Below, one piece after another: positions 14,015-32,699 of a DNA stretch of 64,000 nucleotides; the stretch's first letter is position 1; each line of letters starts with the position of its first letter. Source of the stretch: Gammaproteobacteria bacterium (GTDB taxonomy: Bacteria; Pseudomonadota; Gammaproteobacteria; Steroidobacterales; Steroidobacteraceae). Below the pieces are notes generated by a model. It had not been told where the DNA came from. It made no database searches and saw only the letters and a list, made by a program, of their open reading frames with translations. Made by a program: the position numbers and the translations under genes. The stretch spans positions 1 to 64,000 of the forward strand of contig JAQGOF010000080.1 of assembly GCA_028293745.1 (NCBI GenBank). Direction: 5' to 3'.

Positions 14015-17000
14015 ATGACGATTACAGCTGATGGGATCATCAGAAGAGCGGTTCGAACGGCTCTCCTGACCAGCGGAACGATCGCGGCGGGACTCGCGGG
14101 GCACTCTCAACAGGCGCGCGCCGCTGCGCCAGCTGACGCCGAAGAAGCGCCAGCGCTCCAGGAAGTGGTCGTGACGGGTTCACGCATCACGGCACCCAAC
14201 CTGGAGTCAATCAGCCCTGTCACCGCAATAAGCGCCGACGAAGTCAAGGAAACCGGCGTCACCCGCGTCGAGGACCTCCTGAACAGCCTGCCCCAGGTCG
14301 TTGCCGACCAGGGATCCGGCATTTCAATGGGCTCGAGCGGTACCGCGACCATCAACCTTCGCGGCCTTGGCCCTCAGCGCACCTTGGTGCTGATCAATGG
14401 CCGGCGCCTGATGGGCGGTGACCCCGTCTCGCCGAGCAATACGAACCTCGGCTATGCATCTACCGCGGACGTCAACCAGATCCCTGTCGCCCTGATCGAG
14501 CGCGTGGACGTACTCACGGGCGGCGCCTCCTCCACATACGGCGCGGACGCCGTGGCAGGCGTCGTGAACTTCGTGATGAACGATCACTTCGAGGGTGTGC
14601 GCGTTGATGCCAATTTCGGCATTTACAACCACAGCAACCACGAGGACTGGATCAACCCGCTGGCGGCAAAGAGAGGCTTCAACACGGTGACGGGCACCAA
14701 CTGGGACGGACAGAACAAGGATCTGACCGTCATCATGGGCCACAACTTCGCCGACGGCGCGGGAAATTTCGAAGGCTACATTGGTTATCGCCGCGCATCG
14801 CCCATTACAGCCGACCACCGTGATTTTTCGAACTGCGTGCTCGGCGATCAGCTGACCGGCGGTACTCCTTGGGTCTGCGGCGGCTCGAGCACTTCCGCGC
14901 CGGCGATCTGGTTCGATCCCGTCAGCGGCGCGGCGAGTCAGATCAATCCGGACGGTACCGTAGGTGCCCGGTACGCGCGTTACAACTATGCCGCGACCCA
15001 CTATCTGCAGCGTATCGATGAGCGCTACACCGCCGGATTCTTCGGTCATCTGAAGTTCAATGATCACGCCGAGGCGTACACCGAGTTCGGGTTCATGGAC
15101 GACACTACTCGCGGTAACTACGCCCCCGCGGGCGCGTTCATCGCCAGCGGTAAGTCCGTCGATAAGGATACCGGTCTGCCGGATGGCAACTGGTCGGTCA
15201 ATTGCGGAGCCGGGGCGTTCGGCAATGCGGGAATGAACCCGTACATGACGGCGTCAGAGTTCGGCACCTGGTGTAACCCCGGCGTCGGCGGAGTCACCAC
15301 GGACTTCACGAATGCGACCCGGGCAGCCGGCAACACCAGCACCTCCTACCAGGTCCAGAACGGCGTTGCGCAGTTGACTCTCGGCCGCCGCAACGTCGAA
15401 GGCGGTCCCCGCATGGACGAGTACACGCACACCACGTGGCGCGGCGTTCTGGGTCTTCGGGGTGCGATCAACGAGGCGTGGAATTACGATGTTTCTGGAA
15501 TTTTCGGGAAGACTCGCTCCTCCGATTACCACAACAACGACACTTCATCGGTCCGGATGCAGGAAGCGCTGCTGGCCACCAAGGATCCCACCACCGGAGC
15601 GATCACCTGCCTGAGCGGGAATCCGGCTTGCGTGCCGTGGAATATCTTCAATCCTACGATTCCGGTCACCTCGAATCAGCTGACTTACTTCACCAATCCC
15701 GGAATCTTCATCTCCGATCAGGAAGAGGACATTGTCAGCGGCTTCGTCAGCGGCGATCTGACTTCCTACGGCGTGAAGCTGCCGACTGCCGAGGATGGTC
15801 TGAAGGCTGTGTTCGGTTCGGAATACCGGCGCGTGACCCTGAGCACCCGTCCGGATCAGGAGTACCTCTCCGGAGATCTGGCCGGAAACGGCTCGCCCAT
15901 TCCGGGTGTGACCGCCGGCATGCATGTATGGGAGGCGTTCACCGAGTTCCGTATGCCTCTCGTACGCAACATGCCTGGCGTGCAGTCTCTCGACTTCGAG
16001 ACCGGCTATCGTTATTCGAACTACACCACCGGATTCTCAACCAATACGTACAAATTCGGTGTGGAATGGAAGCCGATCAACGATGTGAGGTTGCGGGCGA
16101 GCTACAACCGTGCGGTCCGCGCGCCCAACCTCCAAGAGCTGTTTCGCCCTGACATCGTGGGGCTGGATAGTGGCGGCGACAGCTGCGCGGCCCCCAGCAA
16201 CCTCACCGCGGCTCAGTGCGCACTGCAGGGTGTCACTCCCGCGCAGTACGTGGCTGGCGGCGGCGGTGTCGCCGGCAACCCTGCCGGTCAGTACCAGGGT
16301 CAGATCGGTGGTAATCCGAAGCTGAGACCGGAAGTGGGCAAGACCTACAACGTGGGTGTCGTCTTCACGCCGTCCTTCCTGCCGGGTTTCAGTGCGACGC
16401 TCGACTACACCGACATCAAGATCACGGACATCATCACCTCGTTCGGTCCGAATCTGATTCAGGGCAACTGCGTCCTGACCGGAAGTGCCTCGAGCTACTG
16501 GTGCCAGTTGGTCCATCGCAGCGCCACCGGGTCCCTGTGGACGAGCCCGCAAGGCTACACCGTCGATCCGCTGCTCAATCTCGGCAGCCTCGAGAACCGC
16601 TCGGTCGATGTGGGTCTCGCCGAACGCTTCGACATGGGTTCGTTTGGCAAGCTCCATGCGCGCTTGGACGGAACCTACCTGCTGAAACTGATCACCGCGC
16701 CGGGAACGTATCAGGGACTTACGTCGCCGACATCCGAGTGCGCCGGCCGTTTCGGCCCGTCCTGTGCGCCAGCAACTCCGAAGTGGCGGCATCGTCTGGC
16801 CGTCGATTGGCAAACCCCGCTCTCCGGTCTGGGCGTGGGCGCCACCTGGCGCTTCATCGGCAAGGCCCGAAACACGCTGTTGGATCCCACGAGCCCGGAC
16901 TATGTGGGTGATCCGACTCAGAAGCTCATCGACGACCATATCCCGAACATCAGCTACCTCGACCTGCGTGCTTCGTACCAGTGGAATAAGGTCACGATTC

Positions 17001-17155
17001 GCACGGGCGTCAACAACGTCGCGGATAAGGATCCGCCGCTGTTCGATACCGTCAATTCCGGTGGTAACTCCATTTACGCGGAGAGCAACACCTACGCAGG
17101 TATGTACGACATGGCCGGCCGGTTCGTGTACCTGAACCTGACGGTCGACTTCTAA
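14015..17155 (+). CDS. TonB-dependent receptor (large, oar-like/carbohydrate or peptide type)
   Basis: 1046 residues. A signal peptide ending near QARAAAPA is followed by the TonB-box-like LQEVVVTGSRI, a plug domain (about residues 65-190) containing RGLGPQRTLVLINGRR and TGGASSTYGADAVAGVVNF, and a large beta-barrel ending in an aromatic C-terminus LNLTVDF. It sits in the outer membrane and would use the proton-motive force through TonB. The plug sequence and size are typical of receptors that import oligosaccharides or peptides rather than siderophores; the substrate is unknown. It is closely related in design to the receptor at 29676-32699. A strong terminator follows the stop. Confidence 0.95.
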   Translation: MTITADGIIRRAVRTALLTSGTIAAGLAGHSQQARAAAPADAEEAPALQEVVVTGSRITAPNLESISPVTAISADEVKETGVTRVEDLLNSLPQVVADQGSGISMGSSGTATINLRGLGPQRTLVLINGRRLMGGDPVSPSNTNLGYASTADVNQIPVALIERVDVLTGGASSTYGADAVAGVVNFVMNDHFEGVRVDANFGIYNHSNHEDWINPLAAKRGFNTVTGTNWDGQNKDLTVIMGHNFADGAGNFEGYIGYRRASPITADHRDFSNCVLGDQLTGGTPWVCGGSSTSAPAIWFDPVSGAASQINPDGTVGARYARYNYAATHYLQRIDERYTAGFFGHLKFNDHAEAYTEFGFMDDTTRGNYAPAGAFIASGKSVDKDTGLPDGNWSVNCGAGAFGNAGMNPYMTASEFGTWCNPGVGGVTTDFTNATRAAGNTSTSYQVQNGVAQLTLGRRNVEGGPRMDEYTHTTWRGVLGLRGAINEAWNYDVSGIFGKTRSSDYHNNDTSSVRMQEALLATKDPTTGAITCLSGNPACVPWNIFNPTIPVTSNQLTYFTNPGIFISDQEEDIVSGFVSGDLTSYGVKLPTAEDGLKAVFGSEYRRVTLSTRPDQEYLSGDLAGNGSPIPGVTAGMHVWEAFTEFRMPLVRNMPGVQSLDFETGYRYSNYTTGFSTNTYKFGVEWKPINDVRLRASYNRAVRAPNLQELFRPDIVGLDSGGDSCAAPSNLTAAQCALQGVTPAQYVAGGGGVAGNPAGQYQGQIGGNPKLRPEVGKTYNVGVVFTPSFLPGFSATLDYTDIKITDIITSFGPNLIQGNCVLTGSASSYWCQLVHRSATGSLWTSPQGYTVDPLLNLGSLENRSVDVGLAERFDMGSFGKLHARLDGTYLLKLITAPGTYQGLTSPTSECAGRFGPSCAPATPKWRHRLAVDWQTPLSGLGVGATWRFIGKARNTLLDPTSPDYVGDPTQKLIDDHIPNISYLDLRASYQWNKVTIRTGVNNVADKDPPLFDTVNSGGNSIYAESNTYAGMYDMAGRFVYLNLTVDF

Positions 17156-17200
17156 GATTCCAGGACGGAAGCCAGGAAGTAAGACTGTTGTTGCTTATTG

Positions 17201-17227
17201 CGGCGGGCGCGAGCCCGCCGTTTTTTT
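17201..17227 (+). terminator. rho-independent terminator after TonB-dependent receptor
   Basis: A perfect 8-bp GC stem cggcgggc/gcccgccg with loop gcga is followed immediately by seven T residues, 45 bp after the receptor stop. It would end forward transcription before the convergent sulfotransferase gene. Confidence 0.92.
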
Positions 17228-17257
17228 GGGCAATTTGAGCCGACTCGCGCGCTGGAG

Positions 17258-19084
17258 TTACTCCAGGGAGTAGCTCCAGCGCTCGATCCAGGGCAGCAAA
17301 ACCGGCAACACCCCGCTGAAGTGCCGCTCGTAGTGCTTCCAACGCCGCACGGATCGGGCGCTCACGGGCTCGAGCACCTGAGCGTAGCTGGGTGTGCTGA
17401 TCAACCCCTTGGCAAGAGCGCGTTCCCCCGGCTCGAGCAGGGCGTCGTCCCAGGGTAACCCCAGGAATACCCTGAGCTTATCGACTTCGGATGCGAAGTC
17501 CGAGACGAGCCGTTCGTATTGCAGCTCGTAGCTGCGTGGACGCAGCAGAGGCCATTGCGAATACCAGAAGTCGAATACGCGCGCGTAGACCTTGGCCAGC
17601 GTCGGCAGATCACTGCACAGCAACGCAACGCCCGGTGAGCGGAAATGCTGCAGGAAGCAGCTCAGCAGCGTGTCGCAGGGATGACGGATGGCGAGAATGA
17701 TGCTCGCCTGGGGGAACAATCGTTGAATCAGCGGCAGCAGGACGAGGTTCAGCGGGTTCTTGTCCACGAGCCGCCGGCCCGGAAGCAAACCTCGCCGACG
17801 CGCACGATCCCAATAATTTGCGCGGATCACGTCGATGGTCTGTTGAGTCAACTTGCCCATCGCGGCTGGATATCTGAAACCGCTCTGCGTGACTTCATCG
17901 AGGGCCCTGAGCAGGAAAGGCTGCTCGTCCATGGACTGTAGCAAGGGATGAGCATCCAGTACGTGCTCCAACAGAGTCGTCCCTGAGCGTGGGAATCCCA
18001 CTATGAAGATGGGGCTGTCTTCCCTTGGAGGCCCCACGCCTTGCCAGGTTGCGATGTCGCCCGGATCGCATGTGCTGGAGGTCAGTGACCACGTCTGCGA
18101 CTCCTCTGCTGAGGATGCGCCTGTCGCGACTCGGAGAAATGCCAGCTGCGAACGGTGGGCTTCTTCCGTTACCGAGTACGCCTCCTCGTAACGACCCAGC
18201 GCGTCACAAACCTTGGCGAGCGGAAAGAGCAGAGTATGCCGGTGCGCGAGGTCGTCCTGGTTCTGCAGCGCCACGCTCAGGTGTTGATACGCCTCTTCGT
18301 GTTTACCGGCTCTATCAGCCAACACCGCCGACATCAGCAATCGATCGGGGTCGGCTTCGAGGCTGCGGTCATTGAGCAGGGCGCGCTCCATGGTCACACG
18401 TGCCTCGTCCAAATGATTCAGTCGCTCCAAAATGGATGCAAAACCGAGGGCTGCCCGCCCGTGCCGCGGAGGATTCGCTCGCAGCCGCTCCAACGCCTCC
18501 CGCACCTGCGGTACTACTCCCAAAGCTACGAGCAGGAGGACAATCCGCACGGTGATGTCGATCGTCTGTCCCTCCAGCTTTTGCCAGCCTTCCAGTGACA
18601 CCAGAGCTTCCTCGAGTAGTGAGAGCTCGTAACAGCACTGCGCGTACGCCCAGCGGACAGTGACATCGCCCGGCGCAAGAGCTGCGGCGTCCCGGAGCGC
18701 GCTGTATGCCGCCCTGTAGTCGCACCGGTCCATTTGCAGGATGCCCAGGTTGTAAAGCAGGCCCGCCGATGGAGGACCCAGCTGCAGTGCCCGCTCGAAT
18801 GCGTTGAGAGCTTGCGCGTACCTACGGGTCGGCCGCAGGGCAGTACCCAGATTTTGCCAATGTCCGGCGACGGTGGGCTGCATCAGTGTAAGGGCATTGA
18901 ATACCCGCACTGCGTCTTCATGACGACGTTGGGAATAGAGGACCTGGCCGAGTATTTCCATCGCGCCTGGATGATGGTGGTTCCCATCGAGGACCTGGAG
19001 GCACTTCGCCTGCGCGGCTGCGAGCTGGCCAGCAGCCAGATCCTGCCGTGCCAGCGCTACCAGCACTTCGGGGTCGCCTTGCAA
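17258..19084 (-). CDS. TPR-containing sulfotransferase
   Basis: 608 residues. The N-terminal half (about residues 1-330) is a run of tetratricopeptide repeats. The C-terminal part is a PAPS-dependent sulfotransferase with the 5'-phosphosulfate loop IVGFPRSGTTLLEHVLDAHP near residues 357-376 and a later RHPCDTLLSCF segment resembling the 3'-phosphate-binding region. The architecture resembles tyrosylprotein-sulfotransferase-like bacterial enzymes, so a protein or peptide acceptor is plausible but unproven. The start is TTG at 19084 with AGGAG 8 nt upstream, 17 bp after the stop of the PAP2-like gene, suggesting one transcript. No signal peptide is visible. Confidence 0.9.
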   Translation of the reverse strand: MQGDPEVLVALARQDLAAGQLAAAQAKCLQVLDGNHHHPGAMEILGQVLYSQRRHEDAVRVFNALTLMQPTVAGHWQNLGTALRPTRRYAQALNAFERALQLGPPSAGLLYNLGILQMDRCDYRAAYSALRDAAALAPGDVTVRWAYAQCCYELSLLEEALVSLEGWQKLEGQTIDITVRIVLLLVALGVVPQVREALERLRANPPRHGRAALGFASILERLNHLDEARVTMERALLNDRSLEADPDRLLMSAVLADRAGKHEEAYQHLSVALQNQDDLAHRHTLLFPLAKVCDALGRYEEAYSVTEEAHRSQLAFLRVATGASSAEESQTWSLTSSTCDPGDIATWQGVGPPREDSPIFIVGFPRSGTTLLEHVLDAHPLLQSMDEQPFLLRALDEVTQSGFRYPAAMGKLTQQTIDVIRANYWDRARRRGLLPGRRLVDKNPLNLVLLPLIQRLFPQASIILAIRHPCDTLLSCFLQHFRSPGVALLCSDLPTLAKVYARVFDFWYSQWPLLRPRSYELQYERLVSDFASEVDKLRVFLGLPWDDALLEPGERALAKGLISTPSYAQVLEPVSARSVRRWKHYERHFSGVLPVLLPWIERWSYSLE

Positions 19085-19101
19085 GGCTGAGACTCCTGCC
19101 G

Positions 19102-20322
19102 CTATTTGGCCGCAGCGCCTGTCCGCGCCAGTCCGTAAGCAGCAGCGACCAACGTACCAACCTGCTCGCCCATATGGTTCCCCACTTCACATGAGTTGCG
19201 AAAGTGTACGCCGTCGTAGATGCGGGCATTGGATACTTCCTTGACCAGATCCTCGGTCCGCGTCCAGTAGCGGGTCACGCCGCGTAACGTGTTGCTCGTT
19301 GTGCTCAAAGTCGGCATCGTTTCCTTGCCAACGTCAGCACGAATAAGGGTGGCTATGGTCGACGCAATAACACAGTGCGCACAGGGATACTCCGGGTGCA
19401 TAGGCGTGGCGATCAGCGGTGTCCAATCAGCATCGCGCTCGGTTTTGGCGTTGCCGTCGCGATCTCCGTTACGGACAGCGGTAATCGGCCGCCAAAACTG
19501 ATAGTGGTATTTGGCATCGAGCGCCGCAATCTCGGCGTCGTTGATCGCGGCGGCGATAGCGGCGAAGAGTCGCGCGTTGCGCGTCACCTCGCGGCCGGGT
19601 GCGGCGCTCAGGGAGCGCACAACACCTATGTGGATGTCAGGCAATGCCGTTGCCCAGAACCGCGCGATTTCCGTTTGCTGCGAGGTGCGTTCCGTACTGC
19701 TTGCAGAACCGAGTGTTTTTATTTCGTTGTAATCTCGCGCCCACAGCTCGCCCTTGAGGTCTGGAGGGGGGCCTGGCCGGAGCTGTGCCCCACTCTTCAG
19801 GAACCAAGGTCGGTGCTGCGCAACCGCATACCCGAGTGGAAATGTCGTTGGAACATACACACCCGGTGTGGTGACAGGGCGATAGGGCTCGATTGCCCCG
19901 ATATCGTCGGCGTGCTTCGCGATCACATCCGCGGCCGCTTTCTCGCCGAGCTCGATGCCACGCTTCCGCGCTGAATCATCCGGAATCGCAGTAAGCGCTT
20001 TCTGGTAGGCAGTCTCGGTCTGCGCTTTCAGCAGGGGTGCCTCGTGGATCAGTACGCTGCGGCTCGCGGCGGCAATGGCTGCATCGATCGAGGCACCCTG
20101 CGCCGACCCAAGATCGACACGGTCGTGCGGGTAACGCGCGGTGATCGCGTTCACCGCTTCGTACACTGCACTCTGCGCCAGGGCCACGGTCCGCGTCGTG
20201 TTGGGACCGTCGTCCGCGATCTCGCAGGTCTTACCCGCCCAATCGGCGAGAGTGTCGGCGTGCGCTGCCAGTGAGACCCACAGCAGCGTCAATTGAGCGA
20301 GCCGGCCAAGGAACGTCTGCAT
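19102..20322 (-). CDS. exported PAP2/vanadium haloperoxidase-superfamily protein
   Basis: About 406 residues. I chose the ATG at 20322 because it begins a good signal peptide (MQTFLGRLAQLTLLWVSLAA then HADTLAD) and leaves 52 bp to the divergent gene; the frame is open further upstream to 20394. Vanadate/phosphate-site motifs are present in order: KYHYQFWRPITAVR, MHPEYPCAHC, and ARIYDGVHFRNSCEVG. These correspond to the three PAP2/haloperoxidase motifs, with PCAH in place of the more common PSGH. It may be a periplasmic acid phosphatase or a haloperoxidase; sequence alone does not decide. It lies directly upstream of, and probably in an operon with, the TPR-sulfotransferase. Confidence 0.85.
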   Translation of the reverse strand: MQTFLGRLAQLTLLWVSLAAHADTLADWAGKTCEIADDGPNTTRTVALAQSAVYEAVNAITARYPHDRVDLGSAQGASIDAAIAAASRSVLIHEAPLLKAQTETAYQKALTAIPDDSARKRGIELGEKAAADVIAKHADDIGAIEPYRPVTTPGVYVPTTFPLGYAVAQHRPWFLKSGAQLRPGPPPDLKGELWARDYNEIKTLGSASSTERTSQQTEIARFWATALPDIHIGVVRSLSAAPGREVTRNARLFAAIAAAINDAEIAALDAKYHYQFWRPITAVRNGDRDGNAKTERDADWTPLIATPMHPEYPCAHCVIASTIATLIRADVGKETMPTLSTTSNTLRGVTRYWTRTEDLVKEVSNARIYDGVHFRNSCEVGNHMGEQVGTLVAAAYGLARTGAAAK

Positions 20323-20374
20323 GAGGACTTTTCCCCCTGTTTTCGAAGGTGCCCATAGTAGTGGATACTGAGTC

Positions 20375-22591
20375 ATGAGCTCGATAGATCCCACCAGGAT
20401 GCGTGACCTGGAATCCGCTGTCCGTGACCACCGCGCGGGTCGCCTTCGCGAGGCGGTAGCGGCCTACGAGAGCTTGCTGCGGCGGAACCCCGATGATGCC
20501 GATCTGATGCAATTGCTCGGAGTGGCACTTGGACAGCGCGGAGATCATGAAGCCGGTGCCCGGTTCCTGGCTCGTTCGCTCGAGCTGAAGCCCGATCGTC
20601 CCACCGTTCTCCTGAATCTCGCTCACGCATTACGCACGCTAGGACGGGAGGAGGAGGCGCTACGCTGCTGTAATCGAGCGCTCGCACTGGATCCGTCACT
20701 CGCCGGCGGATACCGCACGCGAGCAGCAGCACTGGCTGCGCTCGGACGTCTTCAGGACGCACTGGCAAACTACGGCCAGGCGGTGCGCCTCGCTCCGAAT
20801 GATCCCTCGGCACACGCTGACCTTGGTGTGGCGTTGGATGCGGTAGGGCGTACCGCAGATGCTTTGTCATGCTTCGAGCGAGCAATTGCGCTCGATCCGA
20901 ATATAGCCGCCGCGCATCATAATCACGCCATGCTGAACGCTCGTCTGGGTAACCAGGAGCGGGCGCTGCAGAGCTTCGATCGCGCAGTCGCGTTGCAGCC
21001 CCATCATGCGGCGCTTCATAACAACCGGGCCAATACCCTCAAGGAGCTCGGGCGCTTACCTGAAGCGCTGAAAGGTTACTCGCTTGCACTTGCGATCGAG
21101 CCAGGCAACCCCGAGACATTGCACAACCGGGCAGTCGTCAGCTCGCTGCTCGGCGATCATACCGAAGCGCTGCGAGATTACGACGAGTTGCTCGCTCGTG
21201 GTGGTGAGAAAGCGCCGGATTTGATTGGGCGAGGCGCTGCCCTGGTCGCCCTGAAACGCAACGCTGAGGCGCTCGCACCGCTGCAGCGAGGCACTGAGCT
21301 CTTGCCGAACGACGCGGAGGGGCACACTCAGTACGGGGTTGCGTTGCTACGACTGAGTCGTTACGCGGAGGCTCTGGCCAGCTTCGACCGGGCTCTGGCA
21401 CTCGAGCCTGACCAGCCGGAAGTGCTCAACAATCGCAGTATCGCACTGGTCGCCCTCGGTCGGGTGGAGGAGGCCCTCATCACGCTCCAAGGTGCAATCG
21501 CCCTGAGCAAGGAGTCCGCCGATACCTACACCAACCTCGGCCTCGTCTACCGGGCGCTGGGTCGTAACTACGAGGCCATGGCCAGTTTCCGGCAAACGCT
21601 CGCGCGCAAGCCCGCCGATCCCGCCGCGAGTTTTGCATTGGCCTTCGCTCACCTCACCGTGGGCGAATTCAAGGAGGGATGGCCACTGTACGAGTCACGC
21701 TTCCAGGAGCCGACGCTCGCCGTTCCAACACGTGACTTCGGCGTGCCGCGCTGGAACGGAGTGGACTCGCTGGTGGGCAAGACGCTGTTGGTGAACGCGG
21801 AGCAGGGTCTCGGCGATGCGATCCATTTCTGCCGTTACCTGCCACCGCTGGCCGCGCGGGGAATCAACATCGTCTTCGAAGTGATGCCAGCGCTCAAAGC
21901 ACTGCTGCGAACGCTCCCGGGCTCCATTCAGATCATCGGCCGGGGCGAGCGGATTCCGGCGGCCGACTATCACTGTCCCTTGCTCAGCCTGCCGCTGGCG
22001 TTGGGTACGGATCTCGCCACGATTCCGGCCGATGTGCCGTACCTGGCGACGGATGCGGAACGCACTGCGAAATGGGCGGGTCGGATACAGGCCATTCCGG
22101 GATTGCGCGTCGGAATCGCCTGGCAGGGCAATCCGACAGTCGAGCAGCTCATGTGGGCGCGCGGGCGTTCCATGCCGCTCGTGGAGCTCGCGCCGCTGGC
22201 TCGAATCCCGGGTGTCAGTCTGATTTCCCTGCAGAAGGGGGCCGGATCAGAGCAGATCCGGGACGTTCCGTTCAGCGACCGGGTGCTCGATCTGGGCGCG
22301 GAGCTCGATGAGGGGCCGGATGCGTTTGTGGATACCGCAGCGGTAATGGCGGGCCTCGATCTTGTCATCAGCACTGATACCTCCATTGCGCATCTCGCGG
22401 GGGCACTCGCGCGACCGGCGTGGATCGCCCTGCCCGCGGCTGCTGAATGGCGTTGGCTCCTGGAGCGCAGCGACAGCCCCTGGTACCCAACCATGCGCCT
22501 CTTTCGGCAACGGCGCCGAGGCCACTGGCCATCCGTCGTTTCGGCCATGGTCTCGGCCCTGACGCCGCTTGCGTCCGGGCACCCGCGCTAG
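20375..22591 (+). CDS. TPR protein with C-terminal glycosyltransferase-like domain
   Basis: 738 residues. Roughly the first 440 residues are about a dozen tandem tetratricopeptide repeats with consensus such as ALASFDRALALEPDQPEVL. The C-terminal 280 residues resemble glycosyltransferase family 9/41-type folds: LVNAEQGLGDAIHFCRYLPPL, RVGIAWQGNP, and near the end DLVISTDTSIAHLAGALARP. This matches the nucleotide-sugar-binding half of such enzymes. It could glycosylate a protein or act as a scaffold. It is divergent from the PAP2-sulfotransferase pair and convergent with the hydroxylase pair. No export signal is apparent. Donor and acceptor cannot be read from the sequence. Confidence 0.85.
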   Translation: MSSIDPTRMRDLESAVRDHRAGRLREAVAAYESLLRRNPDDADLMQLLGVALGQRGDHEAGARFLARSLELKPDRPTVLLNLAHALRTLGREEEALRCCNRALALDPSLAGGYRTRAAALAALGRLQDALANYGQAVRLAPNDPSAHADLGVALDAVGRTADALSCFERAIALDPNIAAAHHNHAMLNARLGNQERALQSFDRAVALQPHHAALHNNRANTLKELGRLPEALKGYSLALAIEPGNPETLHNRAVVSSLLGDHTEALRDYDELLARGGEKAPDLIGRGAALVALKRNAEALAPLQRGTELLPNDAEGHTQYGVALLRLSRYAEALASFDRALALEPDQPEVLNNRSIALVALGRVEEALITLQGAIALSKESADTYTNLGLVYRALGRNYEAMASFRQTLARKPADPAASFALAFAHLTVGEFKEGWPLYESRFQEPTLAVPTRDFGVPRWNGVDSLVGKTLLVNAEQGLGDAIHFCRYLPPLAARGINIVFEVMPALKALLRTLPGSIQIIGRGERIPAADYHCPLLSLPLALGTDLATIPADVPYLATDAERTAKWAGRIQAIPGLRVGIAWQGNPTVEQLMWARGRSMPLVELAPLARIPGVSLISLQKGAGSEQIRDVPFSDRVLDLGAELDEGPDAFVDTAAVMAGLDLVISTDTSIAHLAGALARPAWIALPAAAEWRWLLERSDSPWYPTMRLFRQRRRGHWPSVVSAMVSALTPLASGHPR

Positions 22592-22609
22592 GAGCCGGTC
22601 TGACAGCCC

Positions 22610-23071
22610 TTACCTGATGCGTTTGACCTTGGTCTTGCGCCCGTGATCGGCCACGAGCCACAGGGAGGTCATCGCCCCGTGCTCGATGTGCACAGCCTCG
22701 CCAACGGAGAAACTAATGTTGGGCGAGGGTTCGGCCTGCCGCCATACCTGCTCGTTGTCCAGTGTAAAGATCAACTCGCCACGAGGTGCCTGCCGCAGGG
22801 CGCGGATCTTACCTGTCAGTACGCCGCTCTCGGGCTTGTGTTCTTCAGACGGGGAGCGCTTGTGTTCGATCTCGGCTGTCATGCCGAACTTGTCCGCCTC
22901 CACCTTGGGCAGTGAGCCGGCCAAGGCATCGAAGCACGCCAGCCGTTGTGCCTGGTCGCTTTCGTGGGCACAACGACGCATCCCATCACTGAGGGCGTCA
23001 GTTCCTGCCAGCACCGGCAGGCAGACTGGCGCGAGCAGGAGCAACGATCTGCGTAATAGAGACCAAGTCAT
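22610..23071 (-). CDS. small secreted hypothetical protein coupled to the beta-hydroxylase gene
   Basis: 153 residues. The frame is open further upstream, but the ATG at 23071 overlaps the TGA of the upstream hydroxylase gene (ATGA, 4 bp) and begins a clear signal peptide (MTWSLLRRSLLLLAPVCLPV ending near LAG). The mature part starts with MRRCAHESDQAQRLACFDAL, a paired-cysteine motif found in several small envelope proteins, and continues with a predicted beta-rich region. Translation is likely coupled to the hydroxylase. It could be a periplasmic partner or substrate, but no function is recognised. Confidence 0.8.
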   Translation of the reverse strand: MTWSLLRRSLLLLAPVCLPVLAGTDALSDGMRRCAHESDQAQRLACFDALAGSLPKVEADKFGMTAEIEHKRSPSEEHKPESGVLTGKIRALRQAPRGELIFTLDNEQVWRQAEPSPNISFSVGEAVHIEHGAMTSLWLVADHGRKTKVKRIR

Positions 23072-24378
23072 CTCGAGCCCAACTGAGGCGCATCTGCGCC
23101 GTAATAGCGACCCACACCGATAGTCAACGCGCGTACGAGGTCGCGTTCCGGTGCTGTCAGCAGCGGATTCCAGATATCGAATATCAGGATGACCCGCGTC
23201 GCGTCGCTCTCGTTCCATGCCTCGTGCTCGATCGTATCATCGAATACCCAGGCCTTGCCTTTCTGCCAGGCGCGCACCTGTGAGCCGACCCGGAATTCGC
23301 AGCCCCCCGGAATGATGAGGGGAAGGTGGACGATGGAGCGCGTGTTGGTTGTTCCCGTATGCGGCGGGAGGCGCGTGCGCGGCTTGAGCACCGAGAAGTA
23401 GGCTCCCGGAGCATAGCCGGGTACATCACACAGGGGCAGGCGCGCCAGGACCGCGGCAGTCTTCGGACATTTTGCGATATGACTCTCTACGGGCGTGCCG
23501 TCGTGCCAGAGAGAGTAGGTGCTCCAATCCATTGAATGATTGAGCGGACCCCATTGATCCACTGGCGTACCCGGCGGGAAGTCGACGTACGGGGTGAAGC
23601 CTGAACCGTCGGTGTCCAACACCGACAGGGCTTCGGCAGCGACGTCCTCAGTGGCCTCTTCGAGAATATCCAGCCAGGGAAAGTCCTCGCGGGGGAAGAA
23701 CTCGATAGCGGGCAAGTACGGGAAGAGCATGCTCTTGGGCTCACTCGCGTACACGCGCCGCTTGCCCAGCAGAATGTCGCGGCAACCGCTGAAACGCTGT
23801 TGCTCCACCGCGGCGTGCTGAGACACCACCGAGGCAACTTCCTGATCGAGAAACGCTTCCATGTCGCGACGGTTTGCGAGCACCACGTCCCTGGCGCGGG
23901 CCAGGGCGGGCCCCATATGTTGGGGAGCCTGACCGCTGCGCGCGGCTGAAGCAAGTGCGCCCTCGTATACCATGGCCGCCGCTTTGGGCTTGCCGAGCCG
24001 CTCGAGGAGATCACCCTTCTGCAGCAAAGCCAGCACGTAGCGCGGCTCGAGAGCAAGCGCCTTGTCGAGAGCTTCGGATTGCGCCTGCAGGTCGCCGAGA
24101 GCACGGCACACGGCCGCCAGGTTGGTCCACAGCACCTTCGAATTGGCATCACTGACCAGAGCGCGCTCAAAGAGCTCTCTGGCGCGAGCGGCGTTGCCCG
24201 TGCGAAACAGGTAGCCGCCAGCCGCATTGAGAACGATCGGTTGCTGCGGGGCACGAGCCAGGGCCATCTCGACGAGCTTCAGGGCCTCCGTGGGCGGTTG
24301 GTTCCTTGAAACCTGGTCAATGGCGTCTGCGAGGGCTCGGGCTTCGGGTTCGCTGATGGGTATCGCTGTTGCGTTCAC
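23068..24378 (-). CDS. TPR-containing aspartyl/asparaginyl beta-hydroxylase
   Basis: 436 residues with a GTG start. TPR repeats occupy about residues 1-170. The C-terminal domain is a 2-oxoglutarate/Fe(II) Asp/Asn beta-hydroxylase with the first iron His in PPHTGTTNTRSIVHLPL, the second in DDTIEHEAWNESD, and the following Arg in TRVILIFDIWNP for 2-oxoglutarate. The family hydroxylates Asp/Asn side chains in proteins or peptides, or in some cases lipids. It overlaps the next gene by 4 bp. Its pairing with a TPR-sulfotransferase and TonB receptors is a recurring type of neighbourhood in my recollection, but a common substrate is not known. Confidence 0.9.
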   Translation of the reverse strand: MNATAIPISEPEARALADAIDQVSRNQPPTEALKLVEMALARAPQQPIVLNAAGGYLFRTGNAARARELFERALVSDANSKVLWTNLAAVCRALGDLQAQSEALDKALALEPRYVLALLQKGDLLERLGKPKAAAMVYEGALASAARSGQAPQHMGPALARARDVVLANRRDMEAFLDQEVASVVSQHAAVEQQRFSGCRDILLGKRRVYASEPKSMLFPYLPAIEFFPREDFPWLDILEEATEDVAAEALSVLDTDGSGFTPYVDFPPGTPVDQWGPLNHSMDWSTYSLWHDGTPVESHIAKCPKTAAVLARLPLCDVPGYAPGAYFSVLKPRTRLPPHTGTTNTRSIVHLPLIIPGGCEFRVGSQVRAWQKGKAWVFDDTIEHEAWNESDATRVILIFDIWNPLLTAPERDLVRALTIGVGRYYGADAPQLGSR

Positions 24379-24513
24379 GGTACTTGTGGGTGGTAGCGCT
24401 TATAGCGGCGAAGTGTACCCGGAGTAAGGGCTCAAGGGCGTATACGACACAAATGCGACGAATTCCGAGGAGTGGCACCTTCGCTATCCGCCGGAAAGTG
24501 GTAGGTTCGTGGC

Positions 24514-25578
24514 GTGCGCAGAATTGCACCCATACTTCTCGACGGGCGAGGCACCGCGCGGGCTGTCAGTCTCTGGGTGTTGCTGCTCGCGTTCCCCTGC
24601 CAGGTTGTCTTGTGCGCGGCCGATGAGCCGTCAGCTGCCCTGCCAGCGACCGCTTTGCATACAACTGAGCGCGAACAGGTCGAGCCTTTGCTGTTCGCGT
24701 CCCCGACTACACGCGATCACATCGGGCGCGTGATCGTTCCGGTCACCATCAACGGCAAGGGACCGTTCCGATTTATCGTAGACACGGGTGCCACCCACTC
24801 GACCATCTCGCCGGGACTGGTACAAACTTTGGGCTTGCAGCCCTCCGCGGAAGCTTCGGTCGTCCTGAACGGCATCACAGGCTCAGCCCTGGTGACGTTC
24901 GTGACAGTAGACCGATTGCAGGCGGGTGACATGACAATCGAGGCAACAGCGCTGCCCGTGGTCTCGGCCGACGTCATGAACGGTGCCGATGGAATACTGG
25001 GAGCCGCCGGCTTTACGACCAGAACCCTCATGGTCGACTTCCAACATAACCGAGTGGCCATCTCCCGCGGTGTCGCTGCCGCGGTGCGCACGGAAGCGAT
25101 GAGGGTCCATGCTCTGCGTCTGACGCATGGCCTGATCACGTTGGAGACGCGGGTGGGCGGAGTGCGCGTTCAGGCGGTGGTCGATACAGGTTCGGAGCGT
25201 ACTCTCGGCAATCTCGCGTTGCGCGATGCCCTTCGTATGCCAGGGCGAGGCGCAGGCCTGGTTCAGGTGACCTCGGTGTATGGAGCTACCGCGAAGATAG
25301 AGGCGGGCGAGATTCGAATTGCTCCAACCATCGTCATCGATTCCCTGCGTATCACTGATGTGGGCATCGTGTACGGGGATTTTCACATCTTCAAGGTTTG
25401 GGAAATGACGGACAAGCCTGCAATGATCATTGGCATGGACGTGCTGGGCACCGTTCCCCTGCTGGGTATCGATTTCGAGAGACAGGACGTGTATCTCGCA
25501 GGCGTGCGCAGCAAGAACGGCGAGGACGTGTTCCAGGCAATGCACGGATACAATGGGGACCCGGCGATTAAAAAGTAG
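24514..25578 (+). CDS. exported retropepsin-like aspartic protease with two DTG domains
   Basis: 354 residues with a GTG start at 24514. An N-terminal signal segment (WVLLLAFPCQVVLCAADE) points to the periplasm. Two aspartic-protease half-sites are present in one chain: FIVDTGATHSTIS (about residue 90) and AVVDTGSERTLGN (about residue 225), each followed by the beta-hairpin and IIG/ILG-type psi-loop residues (DGILGAAG, AMIIGMDVLG). Retropepsins are usually dimers of one half-site, so a tandem fusion would act as a pepsin-like monomer. It is divergent from the hydroxylase gene (135 bp) and convergent with the receptor at 25671. It may process exported peptides; the substrate is unknown. Confidence 0.88.
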   Translation: MRRIAPILLDGRGTARAVSLWVLLLAFPCQVVLCAADEPSAALPATALHTTEREQVEPLLFASPTTRDHIGRVIVPVTINGKGPFRFIVDTGATHSTISPGLVQTLGLQPSAEASVVLNGITGSALVTFVTVDRLQAGDMTIEATALPVVSADVMNGADGILGAAGFTTRTLMVDFQHNRVAISRGVAAAVRTEAMRVHALRLTHGLITLETRVGGVRVQAVVDTGSERTLGNLALRDALRMPGRGAGLVQVTSVYGATAKIEAGEIRIAPTIVIDSLRITDVGIVYGDFHIFKVWEMTDKPAMIIGMDVLGTVPLLGIDFERQDVYLAGVRSKNGEDVFQAMHGYNGDPAIKK

Positions 25579-25589
25579 AACCCCGGTTC

Positions 25590-25653
25590 CGTGGGACGTA
25601 GAGCCCCGTTACGGTTGGAGGTCCCACGACGCCCAGCTTCGGTGCCGTGGGAC
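25590..25653. repeat. triplicated GTGGGAC motif between convergent genes
   Basis: The octamer cgtgggac occurs at 25590-25597 and 25646-25653, with its complement gtcccacg at 25621-25628, inside the 92-bp gap between the protease stop and the receptor stop. The first and second copies can pair as an 8-bp stem with a 23-nt loop, and the second and third can also pair. It may act as a bidirectional transcription barrier, though no T-run follows. Confidence 0.5.
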
Positions 25654-25670
25654 CCACCCCTACCTCTGGA

Positions 25671-28634
25671 TCAGAACTTCGTCGATACCCTGGCGAACAC
25701 AAACCGGCCAACCATGTCGAATGGACCGGCCAGCGTGTTGCATTTGCAAATGCTGTCCGCGCTCAGGAACGGCGGCTGTTTGTCGAACACGTTGTTGGCT
25801 CCCACCACGAAGCGTGCGTCCTTGAAGATCCATTTGTCCTTGAGCGCATAGCTGCCGCTGACGTTGTTGTAGTACATGTCCGGGATCCGGTTCCCTACGA
25901 CATCCGGCCCACCGTCGAAGCTGGCCAGGTGCTCGATGTAGCGCGTATCCCAGTGAGCCGTGAAGGGTCCAACGCTGTATTCGAGCGTGACCAGCCCCTT
26001 CCATTTCGGGTTGATGTTCTCGTTGGCGTACTGGAAGAAGCCGACGTAACTGCTGACCGTGCCGTCCGCATTCGTCTGCGTGTTCTTGTACTGATGTTCA
26101 GCCTGCAGGTCGAATCGTATCGCGCCCGGGAACGGCAGATTCAGCTGTGCCTGGGCCGTGTCGTACGAGAGCTGATAGTCCACACCCGTCACCCGTGCGA
26201 TGCCGAAGTTGGCATTGAGGCTATTGATCTGGGTGATCGTTCCACTGGTCGGAGAGCGCGCGATCAGGTCGCAATATGCCTTGTTCTGCGCCGGTCCGTA
26301 GCAGCCGAGCAGCACCGAGTCCACACTGGTCGCGTTGACGATGCCACCGGTGAGGACGGTGTTATCGATACGGATGTTGTAGTAATCCACCGCGAGGCTG
26401 AGCCCGGGGGTCACCGGCGGGGTCAGCACGAACCCAAAGCCGTACTGGAACGACTTCTCGGGCTGAAGGTGCGGATTGCCGCCCTGCAGCACCTGCTGCT
26501 GCTGGGCAGTCTGATTGTTGTTGCCGGACTGGAAGTTCGTCACGGCGGCGCCATTTGCAACGGCCGCCGAGCAGGTTGAGCCCGCCGCCAGCACGCCCTT
26601 GCCGACGTTCGAGTTGCCGTTGAAACCGGCCGCCCGCGTGTCGCACGGATCTCCGTTCCCCGTAATATCGCTGATGCCCTGGCCAGCGAACAGCTCAGAG
26701 ACGCTCGGCGCCCGGAAACCAGTCGAGTATGAGCCGCGGAACCGGATGGTATCGAGCGGCTTCCATTCCAGGCCTACCTTCCATGTCTTCGCATCGCCGA
26801 AGGTATCGTACTTGTCATAGCGCGCACTGGGCGAGAGCGTGAGGGTCTTGGCGAACGGCGCGTCCTTGAGAATCGGAACGTTGAATTCCCCGTAGACCGA
26901 AGACACGTGGTAGCCACCCGATGTTGGTTGCGACTGGTTTGGGCCCCAGCCTTCCTGTACGAGGATGTCAGGGGTGTCGCCGGCTGCCTCATCGCGGTGT
27001 TCAGCACCGAATGCGCCGCGCACTGGACCGGCAGGCAGATCGAATAACGATCCGTTCACGTCCGCGTACCAGTAACGCTCGGTCGAAGTGTTGATGTCGG
27101 TGTTGTTCCACGTGAGGTAGGCTACCTGCGCGCCTGTGAACATGTTCGGACCGTTGAAGAAGTTCGGCATCACGGTCGGTACCGAGGTGACGAGCGCCTT
27201 TTGAGTCCCTGCCGCAAGGGCCGCCTGCGACGACGCCAACTGTGCCGCCGTTGCGGCGCTGCAGCCGCCCGGCACGTCGATGCAGTTGATCTGGCCGGTC
27301 ATCTGCGCCAGGTGGTTGAAATTGCCCTCGTTGTGGGTCACGTTGCGAGTCGTGTTGTGCTGGTCGACGAAACCCGCTTCCCAGTTGAAGCTCGTGTCGC
27401 CGAATGTTCCCTCGAAGCCGGCCCGGACGCGGGACGTCTGTGAGTTGTCCTCATAGCGGCGGGGACCGAACTGATCCGGTGTAAGGAACCCCGTGATGGT
27501 CTGCCCGGTCGTATTGCCCGGGGCGTAATCCGGAACGAAGAACCCGGCAAACGCAGTCGTGCTGATGGTATCGCCCAGCAGCGGCTCGGGACGCAGCGAG
27601 CCTTTGCTCGTGCGGTCCGAGAAGAATCCCTCGAGGACGAACCGCGTGTACGGGGCGATATCGTAGTGGGAGTTGAGGCTGATCTCCTTGCGGTCGAGTC
27701 CCTGCGTCAGGTAGTTCCAACCCGGCGCGCCGGCATTGAGCTTCAACGCATTCTTCGGAGCGGTCAGATAGACCGTGTTCGGAACGAGCCCGGCAGTGGC
27801 CGGATCCTTCAAACTGTATTGCGTACCCCCGATCCAGATATTGTTCGAGAACTCGTCCTGCAGGACGTTCAGCTGCGAACGGTAGGTCGATCCGCCTGCG
27901 CCGAAAGCGGCACCCTGGTGCGGGTCAACGGACCAGGAGCGCTGCGCCTGCTGGACTGGGTCGATGTGGTCCCAGCTGACCCCGACCATTACGTTGCCCT
28001 TCTCCGAATTCATGCCGATCGTACCGGAAAGGGTCCTGGTGTCGCCGCCACCGCCACTGTTGGTGGGCGCCCCATAGCTGGCGTCGAAGCTGACGCCTTC
28101 GGAGTGCTTCTTGGTAATGATGTTGACCACGCCGGCGATGGCGTCGGCGCCGTAGATCGAGGACGCGCCGTCGCGCAGGACTTCGATCCGCTCCACCATC
28201 CCGATCGGCACTGAGTTCAGGTCGGGAATGGTCTGCGTAACACCGAAAACCGGAATCAGCCGCTGGCCGTCGATCAGGATGAGGGTCCGTGCCTGGCCGA
28301 GGTCGCGAAGGGCGACGCTCGAGGAGCCACCGCCGCCGTTGTTGGACGCGAGCGTAGTGCTCATTGTAACGCCCGTCATTCTGCTCAGGGCGTCTTCGAT
28401 GTTAGCGGCCTTCGTCATTGAGATTTCTTCGGCCGTGACCACCGAAACAGGGCTTGCGCTGTCGGCGTTGGTAACGCCCTTGATGCGCGAGCCCGTAACC
28501 ACGACTTCCTGTATTACTGGTGCCGCCGAGCTCTCCGGCTCATCCGCCATCGCGGGCAGAGCCACGGTCGCCCCGAGCGCGCTCAGCGCGAGCGCGCGCC
28601 GGGTGGCGCGACCTATCCGACTGATACTGGACAT
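25671..28634 (-). CDS. TonB-dependent receptor
   Basis: 987 residues from the ATG at 28634, chosen because AGGAGG lies 6 nt upstream (an in-frame TTG 15 bp further out overlaps this site). A signal peptide (ALALSALGATVALPAMADE) is followed by TonB-box-like IQEVVVTGSRIKG, a plug with RDLGQARTLILIDGQRLIP and RDGASSIYGADAIAGVVNI, and a beta-barrel ending in VGRFVFARVSTKF. It belongs to the large receptors with Gly/Ser-rich plug loops (NNGGGGSSSVAL) seen for complex nutrients. The substrate is unknown. It is convergent with the retropepsin gene, and its promoter must lie in 28635-29010. Confidence 0.95.
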   Translation of the reverse strand: MSSISRIGRATRRALALSALGATVALPAMADEPESSAAPVIQEVVVTGSRIKGVTNADSASPVSVVTAEEISMTKAANIEDALSRMTGVTMSTTLASNNGGGGSSSVALRDLGQARTLILIDGQRLIPVFGVTQTIPDLNSVPIGMVERIEVLRDGASSIYGADAIAGVVNIITKKHSEGVSFDASYGAPTNSGGGGDTRTLSGTIGMNSEKGNVMVGVSWDHIDPVQQAQRSWSVDPHQGAAFGAGGSTYRSQLNVLQDEFSNNIWIGGTQYSLKDPATAGLVPNTVYLTAPKNALKLNAGAPGWNYLTQGLDRKEISLNSHYDIAPYTRFVLEGFFSDRTSKGSLRPEPLLGDTISTTAFAGFFVPDYAPGNTTGQTITGFLTPDQFGPRRYEDNSQTSRVRAGFEGTFGDTSFNWEAGFVDQHNTTRNVTHNEGNFNHLAQMTGQINCIDVPGGCSAATAAQLASSQAALAAGTQKALVTSVPTVMPNFFNGPNMFTGAQVAYLTWNNTDINTSTERYWYADVNGSLFDLPAGPVRGAFGAEHRDEAAGDTPDILVQEGWGPNQSQPTSGGYHVSSVYGEFNVPILKDAPFAKTLTLSPSARYDKYDTFGDAKTWKVGLEWKPLDTIRFRGSYSTGFRAPSVSELFAGQGISDITGNGDPCDTRAAGFNGNSNVGKGVLAAGSTCSAAVANGAAVTNFQSGNNNQTAQQQQVLQGGNPHLQPEKSFQYGFGFVLTPPVTPGLSLAVDYYNIRIDNTVLTGGIVNATSVDSVLLGCYGPAQNKAYCDLIARSPTSGTITQINSLNANFGIARVTGVDYQLSYDTAQAQLNLPFPGAIRFDLQAEHQYKNTQTNADGTVSSYVGFFQYANENINPKWKGLVTLEYSVGPFTAHWDTRYIEHLASFDGGPDVVGNRIPDMYYNNVSGSYALKDKWIFKDARFVVGANNVFDKQPPFLSADSICKCNTLAGPFDMVGRFVFARVSTKF

Positions 28635-29010
28635 GAAATCCTCCTGCAAACGGTCAAACCGTTAGACAAATTGATGCGAGTGGGTCCGCTGGGAACCCAC
28701 CGGCATTTGCTCTGCTGTTGTTTGCGACTCCTGGCCCCGCTGGGGACGGTTCCAGGTCCGCGTGTGGCCGATACTACCGCGGTGCACAATTTTCTGGTGC
28801 GTTTTTGGAGAAAAAACAACAGCCCGGAAGGCGGCCAGCACTGTTACGAGGCGCGAAAAGATCGAGACAATTCGTTACTTTGGCGCGCTTGTTCAAAAAG
28901 GGGGCAGTCGCGGGGATATGCGTTGCAACTGTGCAACCAACTTCCCTGGCAATTCACTGACTTATGGTGCCGCGCACCACGGGGGGTCACCCCGGCAGGG
29001 GCCGGATAAC
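28635..29010. other. intergenic region upstream of the second TonB-dependent receptor
   Basis: 376 bp without a supported gene. It contains the AGGAGG ribosome site of the receptor and an inverted repeat gtgggt/acccac at 28680-28700, 45-65 bp upstream of the start and suitable for an operator. An A/T-rich tract lies around 28790-28825. Near 28968-29000, hairpin-forming sequence (ggtgc/gcacc, gggg/cccc) sits downstream of the stop of the next gene and may help end its transcript. Confidence 0.4.
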
Positions 29011-32600: not shown

Positions 32601-32699
32601 AGCCGCAGCGGTCGGTGCCTGAGCGTAGAGCGGAGCTGCCGCTACCAGCGAAAGCACGGTGGCAAGCTGTAGCAACCGCCGCATGTTGGAATGACTCAT
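29676..32699 (-). CDS. TonB-dependent receptor
   Basis: 1007 residues, with AAGGAGG upstream of the ATG. A signal peptide (ATVLSLVAAAPLYAQAP) is followed by EEVIITGSRIPQP, a plug with RGLGPQRTLVLVDGRRLGPG and TGGASAVYGSDAIAGVVNFIMKK, then a long barrel ending GRQAFIGFTAKF. Plug and barrel loops (SQHSNHNDYM, GYRYSKYSTAGHTNAYKFE) closely parallel those of the receptor at 14015-17155, pointing to a related ligand. It is followed in the same direction by a small secreted protein gene and preceded by the PadR-type frame and a perfect palindrome, which may regulate it. Confidence 0.95.
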   Translation of the reverse strand: MSHSNMRRLLQLATVLSLVAAAPLYAQAPTAAAAQTPPPEEVIITGSRIPQPNLTSTSPIQVVTSQEIRQQGYTDAIDVLNTLPQNFQGAATDFSNNTNPLISAGGLSTADLRGLGPQRTLVLVDGRRLGPGDPNTLNPNPAPDLDQIPVSLIDRIDIVTGGASAVYGSDAIAGVVNFIMKKNFEGIQIDGQWGVSQHSNHNDYMQNLAIQAGFPTDTSSELDGQSRNFSILAGTNVADGKGNITAYLEYRRANPVFAPARDFAACELANNSDAAGNPLPNHCIGTQNSNHFGVGDAVYSVVGNQLLPYPQPGSSPPPQFNSNQYITLSREDERYNAGFMAHMNVNEHVRPYADFSFMNDRSTTFVAPSGLFYPAGNTVTASIPGVGGQNLVNCTNPLLSAQEVSVLCGNPANVINGSAVVDIGRRNIEGGPRSAYFEHTNYRVVAGANGDVIQGWTYDAYAQYYYTTLFNANRGYLDYAKVTSALQVTTNPATGQPACISGPPCVPYNIWTTGGVTADQLAYLTSPGTGFGSVTERILHADVTGDLGQYNVKSPLASDAVGVNLGFEHRSDSLAWDPDEGELAGNLAGFSGAVVPIHAGYNVSEGFLEARAPIAQNMPWINELNLNAGYRYSKYSTAGHTNAYKFEVQYAPLDDVRFRASFERAIRAPNLIELFTPPSYGQQGFLGLDPCAGANPTAPLDQCAHTGVTPGQYGHIPQCVSLQCGQITGGNMTLKPEVANTYTIGLTLTPTMLPGFSGSIDFFNIALKNQIGTFPGAYLFNQCLGTADPTFCSQVVRNHVNGALTGATVAGGGYIVQTSQNIAKVVFRGIDVQAAYRYTLPGSWGSLSSSFNGSYLLKSLTTPAPGQHTFNCAGLFGPNCGTTINPKWRHNMRVSWETPFKASFAVQWRFIGKVGVDNNDPDPSLFGSSQGHYDPYNAQLPNMSYIDLSAMYSVTDGISIRAGVNNVLDKDPPLTTASYVGGAGSANAFPSYDLVGRQAFIGFTAKF

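Follow-up and report, generated by a model that had tools for sequence, protein, structure and literature searches.

In a Steroidobacteraceae genome, a sulfotransferase (ST), an AspH-like Asp/Asn beta-hydroxylase (AspH), and a putative glycosyltransferase (GT), each with its own TPR array, are encoded among TonB-dependent receptors (TBDTs), and this gene set is conserved beyond that genome. We propose, at slightly less than an even chance, that such cytosolic TPR enzymes modify a surface protein encoded beside them before it is exported, with receptor A (Table 1) as the likeliest client here. More tentatively, these enzymes could belong to a widespread system of the Pseudomonadota in which TPR-fused TPST-like and AspH-like proteins sulfate and hydroxylate TBDTs, autotransporters, and adhesins before export. 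The locus described here would then be among its richest versions, carrying the GT, a protease, and a haloperoxidase homologue as well.

We analyzed positions 1–64,000 of the forward strand of contig JAQGOF010000080.1 (GCA_028293745.1), hereafter the window, and all coordinates refer to this 64-kb stretch. The ST, PAP2-fold, GT, AspH, and retropepsin genes were found between two TBDTs where an initial annotation had placed them (ORF and domain scan), and the domain scan likewise recovered a separate TPR array on each of the ST, AspH, and GT. Two genes it had not listed, the small VasI-like gene and a third TBDT, are included in Table 1, and the 28634 given earlier as the end of receptor B corresponds to an inner ATG. 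Because strands alternate across the block, it is not one operon. The genome (6.9 Mb in 259 contigs) contains 14 matches to PF13469, one to PF05118, and 116 to the Plug domain, along with two full APS-kinase matches as a source of PAPS. Repeats in the block revealed nothing telling, and no tRNA genes were found in the window.

Table 1. Genes of the block and neighboring receptors, in window coordinates
Feature	Position	Strand	Basis and remarks
TBDT A	14015-17155	+	Plug and barrel domains; candidate client
TPR-ST, TPST-like	17258-19084	-	PF13469 E 5e-33 plus TPRs
PAP2-fold, vanadium-haloperoxidase homologue, exported	19102-20394	-	4cit E 1e-14; PCAHC instead of PSGH
TPR-GT, weakly GT9-like	20375-22591	+	TPRs; GT9 E 6e-4
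VasI-like small exported protein	22610-23071	-	PF11319 E 0.002, below cut-off
TPR-Asp/Asn beta-hydroxylase (AspH-like 2OG oxygenase)	23068-24378	-	PF05118 E 6e-40
Two-domain retropepsin-like aspartic protease, probably exported	24514-25578	+	PF13650 twice
TBDT B	25671-28649	-	Plug and barrel; outside the recurring block
TBDT C	29676-32699	-	Plug and barrel; beyond the initially annotated range; 41% identical to receptor A

Among solved structures, the ST domain was closest to protein-tyrosine sulfotransferase (phmmer, E 1e-16), with CurM as the next family (5e-6). The whole-protein model (mean pLDDT 86) retrieved the TPR arrays of OGT and SPINDLY as its top fold-search hits and matched human TPST-1 with a TM-score to target of 0.72–0.75. 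Across nine homologues the PRSGTT, DEQPF, DKNP, and RHP motifs varied little or not at all, and the protein has a PAPS-binding sulfotransferase fold with TPST as its nearest solved relative. The best NCBIfam match of the domain was to NoeE, a Nod-factor enzyme acting on a glycolipid, at 43 bits vs. a cut-off of 500.

The oxygenase domain of the hydroxylase, searched alone, matched only AspH chains among solved structures (best E 7e-29). Residues H340, G342, R347, H351, and H385 were invariant in the hydroxylase alignment, and alignment and fold search agree on TPRs followed by a double-stranded beta-helix oxygenase with two Fe-binding His residues. The whole model (mean pLDDT 85) matched human AspH over its full length and in domain order; the two do not superimpose as one rigid body (whole-length rmsd 18 Å, TM 0.44), and the oxygenase domain alone gave 3.4 Å. 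Its best NCBIfam match was the lipid hydroxylase OlsC (87 bits vs. a cut-off of 450), and LpxO, at 52 bits, was also below cut-off. Given that PF13469 is a broad family and that OlsC, LpxO, and NoeE, all far below their cut-offs, were the best NCBIfam matches, we treat a protein substrate as a likelihood rather than a result. The ST probably transfers sulfate to protein, with tyrosine as its target, and the hydroxylase likely beta-hydroxylates Asp or Asn of a protein. The ATG of the VasI-like gene overlaps the AspH stop codon as ATGA.

The other members of the block were assigned with varying precision. The GT domain matched Pfam PF01075 (GT9) at E 6e-4 and 19.6 bits, which is under the curated cut-off of 22 and leaves it outside that family, and NCBIfam heptosyltransferase I at E 0.0016 and 17.7 bits vs. 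a cut-off of 185; the Aah/TibC model was absent from the NCBIfam hits listed. Vanadium haloperoxidases are marked by K, RP, PSGH, R, and GVH motifs. The PAP2-fold protein retains KYH/RP, ARI, and GVH but has PCAHC at the PSGH site, a substitution seen in each of the five homologues compared, and thus falls outside that class by motif set; its activity may have been changed or lost through PCAHC. The aspartic protease, with two PF13650 domains and DTG present twice in six homologues, is a member of the retropepsin family.

To establish how far the set travels together, we examined related genomes. An ST search yielded 5 of 99 genomes, the window's own included, each with a TPR-hydroxylase nearby. 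The block of receptor A, ST, GT, AspH, VasI-like, retropepsin, and PAP2 genes recurs in rearranged order in three other genomes (L009, L015, and L064 [G002]) and in part on a short contig (L069). The genomes G000, G001, and G002 have a single PF05118 match each and G043 has two; the single matches and the stronger G043 match all lie within 6 kb of an ST, a placement with a chance of 0.02–0.05 per genome; these four are of one genus and therefore do not represent four independent events.

We then compared 29 stretches around the TPR-AspH gene from close relatives (the window plus relatives sharing its genus, family, or order; 31 of 36 places taken in, some on short contigs). Presence profiles, which were built from close-relative and named loci and therefore favor those sets, detected a TBDT in 23 of the 29, an ST in 18, and a VasI-like gene beside AspH in 17, often joined to it by an overlapping start. 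A GT and a PF13759-type oxygenase were each present in 12, a PF13640-type oxygenase and a retropepsin each in 4, and a vanadium-haloperoxidase-like gene in 3. These relatives are rich in TBDTs (36–116 Plug matches per genome), but rough arithmetic on TBDT density alone predicts a receptor in 15–28% of 20-kb stretches, and the 23 of 29 seen is well above this.

A phylum-wide draw placed TPR-AspH in 28 of 397 genomes, again counting the window's own. Across 36 such stretches outside the window, we detected TBDTs in 11 (13 at a lax cut), STs in 9, and VasI-like genes in 5, vs. 1 (2 lax), 1, and 0 in 40 control stretches, which were hand-picked at round positions in phylum-wide TPR-AspH genomes (35) and close relatives (5). 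One-sided Fisher values for AspH stretches against controls ranged from 8e-12 to 0.02, uncorrected for relatedness. The remaining 23 of the 36 contained no TBDT detectable even at the lax cut. Mapped onto a TPR-AspH tree (73 rows, 72 of them different), the TBDT-linked label required 13 changes, where shuffling gave a mean of 23.4. One starred group of 22 rows was mostly TBDT-unlinked (19 of 22), indicating that linked and unlinked AspH lineages both exist. One contig, entered twice (L014 and L068), contributes rows to both the stretch counts and the tree, in different groups. A lack of co-conservation beyond the window's genome, which the initial annotation had named as the outcome that would count against it, was not what its suggested gene-neighborhood comparison returned.

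AspH and ST also occur as single proteins. One gene (L012:13712-15529) encodes both Asp_Arg_Hydrox and Sulfotransfer_3 domains, with a relative at L013:13948-15864. It aligned with a Diaphorobacter plasmid gene at 98% coverage and 42% identity, and with Asticcacaulis at full coverage and 52% identity, where the annotated gene comprises the sulfotransferase half only; accessions with such fusions are NZ_CP049906.1 and NZ_AP029026.1. Asticcacaulis (sp. DW145) additionally carries a same-strand TBDT-ST-AspH-ST row, and the alphaproteobacterium Polymorphobacter a TBDT, a VasI-like gene, and AspH in a row. The association can be pared down further, as five loci (L074, L083, L084, L086, and L089) contain just a TBDT and AspH.

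To ask what TPR-sulfotransferases adjoin more generally, we classed STs in four genomes as TPR-type when the domain match was up to 600 bases in a frame of 480 aa or more. At least 18 of 37 TPR-type STs lay within 5 kb of a listed Plug match vs. 4.2 expected, whereas other STs did so in at least 3 of 25 cases vs. 2.8 expected; these are lower bounds, as the Plug list held 150 of 248 matches, and two fragment ST rows were left out. A TPR-ST query found a match in 103 of 249 sampled genomes. Stretches from 40 of those 103 contained a TBDT in 13 cases, 12 of them as direct neighbor by ORF map, vs. 3 of 40 controls. Pfam was then run on 15 large neighbors from the TPR-ST stretches alone. Two were Calx-beta proteins, one was an autotransporter, and one was a type V (ESPR) protein, with other or no families in the remaining 11. 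A home-made autotransporter profile from seven plasmid sequences was rejected: it scored zero in these 40 stretches, missing the case found by Pfam, and given this lack of sensitivity its zero in the controls means little. An ASPH label in the same stretches arose from the TPR part of the AspH profile and was disregarded.

Annotated plasmids gave a broader view of these neighbors. A surface or outer-membrane protein was present in 15 of 20 annotated stretches of the named TPR-ST set (flanks 6–12 kb; H4, H6, H7, H11, and H12 left out, H16 and H22 without annotation), and in 17 of 40 unnamed stretches; the other five named stretches (H8, H9, H13, H15, and H69) contained no surface gene. Autotransporters lay beside the TPR-ST in Pacificitalea, Kluyvera, Azospirillum, Thalassospira, Lelliottia, and Enterobacter sp. 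638, the last two representing the same plasmid region, and a porin did so in Cereibacter. On a Comamonas endophytica plasmid (L216, NZ_CP106882.1), a 4321-aa cadherin-domain protein, regarded here as a giant adhesin, a TPR-ST, the type I secretion genes TolC, ABC, and HlyD, and the APS kinase cysC form one row. The TBDT cases comprised three Pseudoalteromonas that share one conserved locus (with the TPR-ST directly beside the TBDT in Pseudoalteromonas sp. Bsw20308), two Novosphingobium, Asticcacaulis, and Komagataeibacter, in which three genes intervene. When four 50-kb control stretches were cut into 16 tiles, annotation placed a TBDT or porin in 5 and an autotransporter or adhesin in none. 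A TBDT somewhere in the vicinity is therefore weak evidence, and the weight rests on direct adjacency and on the stretches with autotransporters or an adhesin. The enzyme genes thus adjoin genes for exported surface proteins of several kinds, as in a surface-protein modification system, and the common factor among TPR-ST neighbors appears to be a large exported surface polypeptide rather than a transport function.

Some stretches held further enzyme combinations. The Lelliottia, Enterobacter sp. 638, and Kluyvera plasmids (L219, L220, and L210) share a row of TPR-ST, GT8-type glycosyltransferase, and autotransporter. A single 1725-aa frame with two sulfotransferase matches (L230:3875-9052, +) lies near a type V (ESPR) protein, and a protein combining GT41 (OGT family), TPR, and FkbM methyltransferase domains (L234:8033-12190, +) directly adjoins a TPR-ST.

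Beyond the architecture, homology, co-conservation, and fusions observed, we infer a substrate, the residues modified, an order of steps, and a purpose. Because the neighbors are surface polypeptides, TPR arrays commonly bind peptides, the solved relatives of the enzymes act on proteins, and the gaps of the block yielded no precursor, a linked surface protein is the likeliest client. The ST, AspH, and GT, which by eye have no signal peptide, would remain in the cytosol, where their TPR arrays would hold an unfolded polypeptide. The ST would sulfate this client, probably on tyrosine, AspH would beta-hydroxylate its Asp or Asn, and the GT would add a sugar. The client would be the neighboring surface protein, here most likely receptor A and perhaps also the VasI-like protein, and would be modified first and then exported by Sec. 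The exported retropepsin and haloperoxidase homologue could act later, in the envelope.

The best-scoring relatives of receptor A in six genomes sit in AspH clusters, and a receptor A clade of 23 in the receptor tree lies in AspH clusters throughout, with an SH-aLRT of 85 that is under the starred level. Other receptor types in the tree were also AspH-linked. Receptors more than 5.5 kb from AspH were labeled "far," including receptor A at 5.9 kb. No clear signature of Asp, Asn, or Tyr modification was seen in clade-marking positions or Asn content, and any such signal is weak at best: the 13 positions marking the linked clade include 3 Asn, 0 Tyr, and 0 Asp, and Asn content was 7.1% vs. 5.9%. 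This absent signature counts against the client model. So do the AspH lineages with no TBDT link, the abundance of TBDTs in close-relative genomes, the weak matches to lipid enzymes, the poor rigid-body fit of the hydroxylase model to human AspH, and the five TPR-ST stretches free of surface genes.

The initial annotation had read the locus as a dedicated pathway that modifies a peptide or protein and imports or exports it. Its view of a dedicated set that modifies a protein or peptide, is conserved together, and goes with TBDTs held up, whereas its notion of peptide synthesis followed by import or export did not. The enzymes could form a peptide-modifying set, RaxST sulfates a secreted peptide according to PMC4216712, and a table in PMC10040529 lists lasso B2 with STs and an aspartyl beta-hydroxylase in Pontixanthobacter kin, all of which would suit a modified ribosomal peptide, its precursor encoded elsewhere or unrecognized, that is exported and taken up by TBDTs. 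However, when we looked for the short conserved precursor ORF that this reading anticipates, none of 59 small ORFs compared was common to the core gaps of four orthologous blocks, so these gaps lack the conserved precursor gene that characterizes a RiPP cluster. Moreover, no lasso-type B2 gene lay near the cluster in 12 genomes searched, 7 of which had none at all, and TPR-STs occur beside autotransporters, an adhesin, and a porin. Peptide import or export is thus unsupported, and we consider this model unlikely, although a precursor could be encoded elsewhere in the genome.

The tendency of one receptor subfamily to travel with the module, together with loci that comprise only a receptor and AspH, could instead mean that the enzymes act on a ligand imported by the receptor, or serve to load or disarm that ligand inside the cell. 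We find this distinctly improbable, as no inner-membrane transporter stands out in the window's block and the autotransporters and adhesins that TPR-STs also adjoin import nothing. An envelope lipid or glycan could also be the substrate: hydroxylation would be of the LpxO/OlsC type, the ST would sulfate a glycan, and the GT would act like a heptosyltransferase, with outer-membrane genes nearby. The GT9-like domain and the OlsC, LpxO, and NoeE matches point this way, but those matches are the sub-threshold ones described above, all three enzymes bear TPR arrays, and in the stretches seen it is individual receptor, autotransporter, and adhesin genes, not those for LPS or capsule, to which the enzymes are tied, making this quite unlikely. 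Finally, a loose neighborhood of TBDT-rich and TPR-rich genes with no common function might be expected given the many Plug matches in the window's genome, the alternating strands, and the common descent of the close-relative loci. Yet the association recurs outside the genus and is kept when gene order changes, and both the AspH-ST fusions and the same-strand row in Asticcacaulis speak against chance, which we regard as highly improbable.

The eukaryotic secretory pathway is the main known setting for protein tyrosine sulfation and Asp/Asn hydroxylation, and human AspH and the TPSTs, the latter not known to carry TPRs, belong to it. The window's enzymes resemble human AspH in their order of TPR then oxygenase and in the HxG, R, H, and HE positions, and TPST1/2 in fold. 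Unlike these, they are bacterial and cytosolic by sequence, and their client is putative. To our knowledge, Rax is the bacterial case of sulfation; the product of RaxST is a small secreted peptide (RaxX), and the enzyme is not known to carry a TPR array. Aah/TibC and HMW1C are cytosolic glycosyltransferases that act on some autotransporters before export. Our client model follows the same logic of an enzyme modifying the surface protein encoded next to it before export, but those systems are known only to glycosylate, not to sulfate or hydroxylate.

PMC4216712 describes RaxST of Xanthomonas as a functional tyrosine sulfotransferase whose gene lies in an operon with secretion genes of the Rax type I system, a likeness to the loci studied here. 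By contrast, blocks of the window's type had no precursor ORF that we could find in their core gaps, and their neighbors are large surface proteins. Table 2 of PMC10040529 lists for Pontixanthobacter kin (clusters 1738-1748) a lasso B2, nucleotidyltransferase, sulfotransferase, aspartyl beta-hydroxylase, sulfotransferase, PqqD, Asn synthase, and glycosyltransferase. Taking consecutive numbers as adjacency, the listing suggests a lasso-type cluster with two STs, an aspartyl beta-hydroxylase, and a GT side by side as in the window, but one carrying B2, PqqD, and Asn synthase, whereas clusters of the window's type have no B2 nearby. Among the matches listed in the open-access literature, none described a link to surface proteins for a TPR-sulfotransferase or for AspH. 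If TBDTs and autotransporters are indeed clients, a common but role-less class of bacterial genes, the TPR-STs, would gain a role, and receptor specificity and cell-surface recognition would gain a chemical layer hidden from genome annotation. Proteomics on cultured strains offers a direct way to test the client model.

Some loci contain the module more than once. One stretch (L071) holds two modules, each with AspH, a VasI-like gene, an ST, and a TBDT, and another (L075) holds two AspH-VasI pairs with one TBDT within the stretch. On a single contig (G009:C44:86383-109206; L071, L177, L181, L186, and L190), five receptor-A-like TBDTs are clustered, with two TPR-AspH genes in the same contig stretch.
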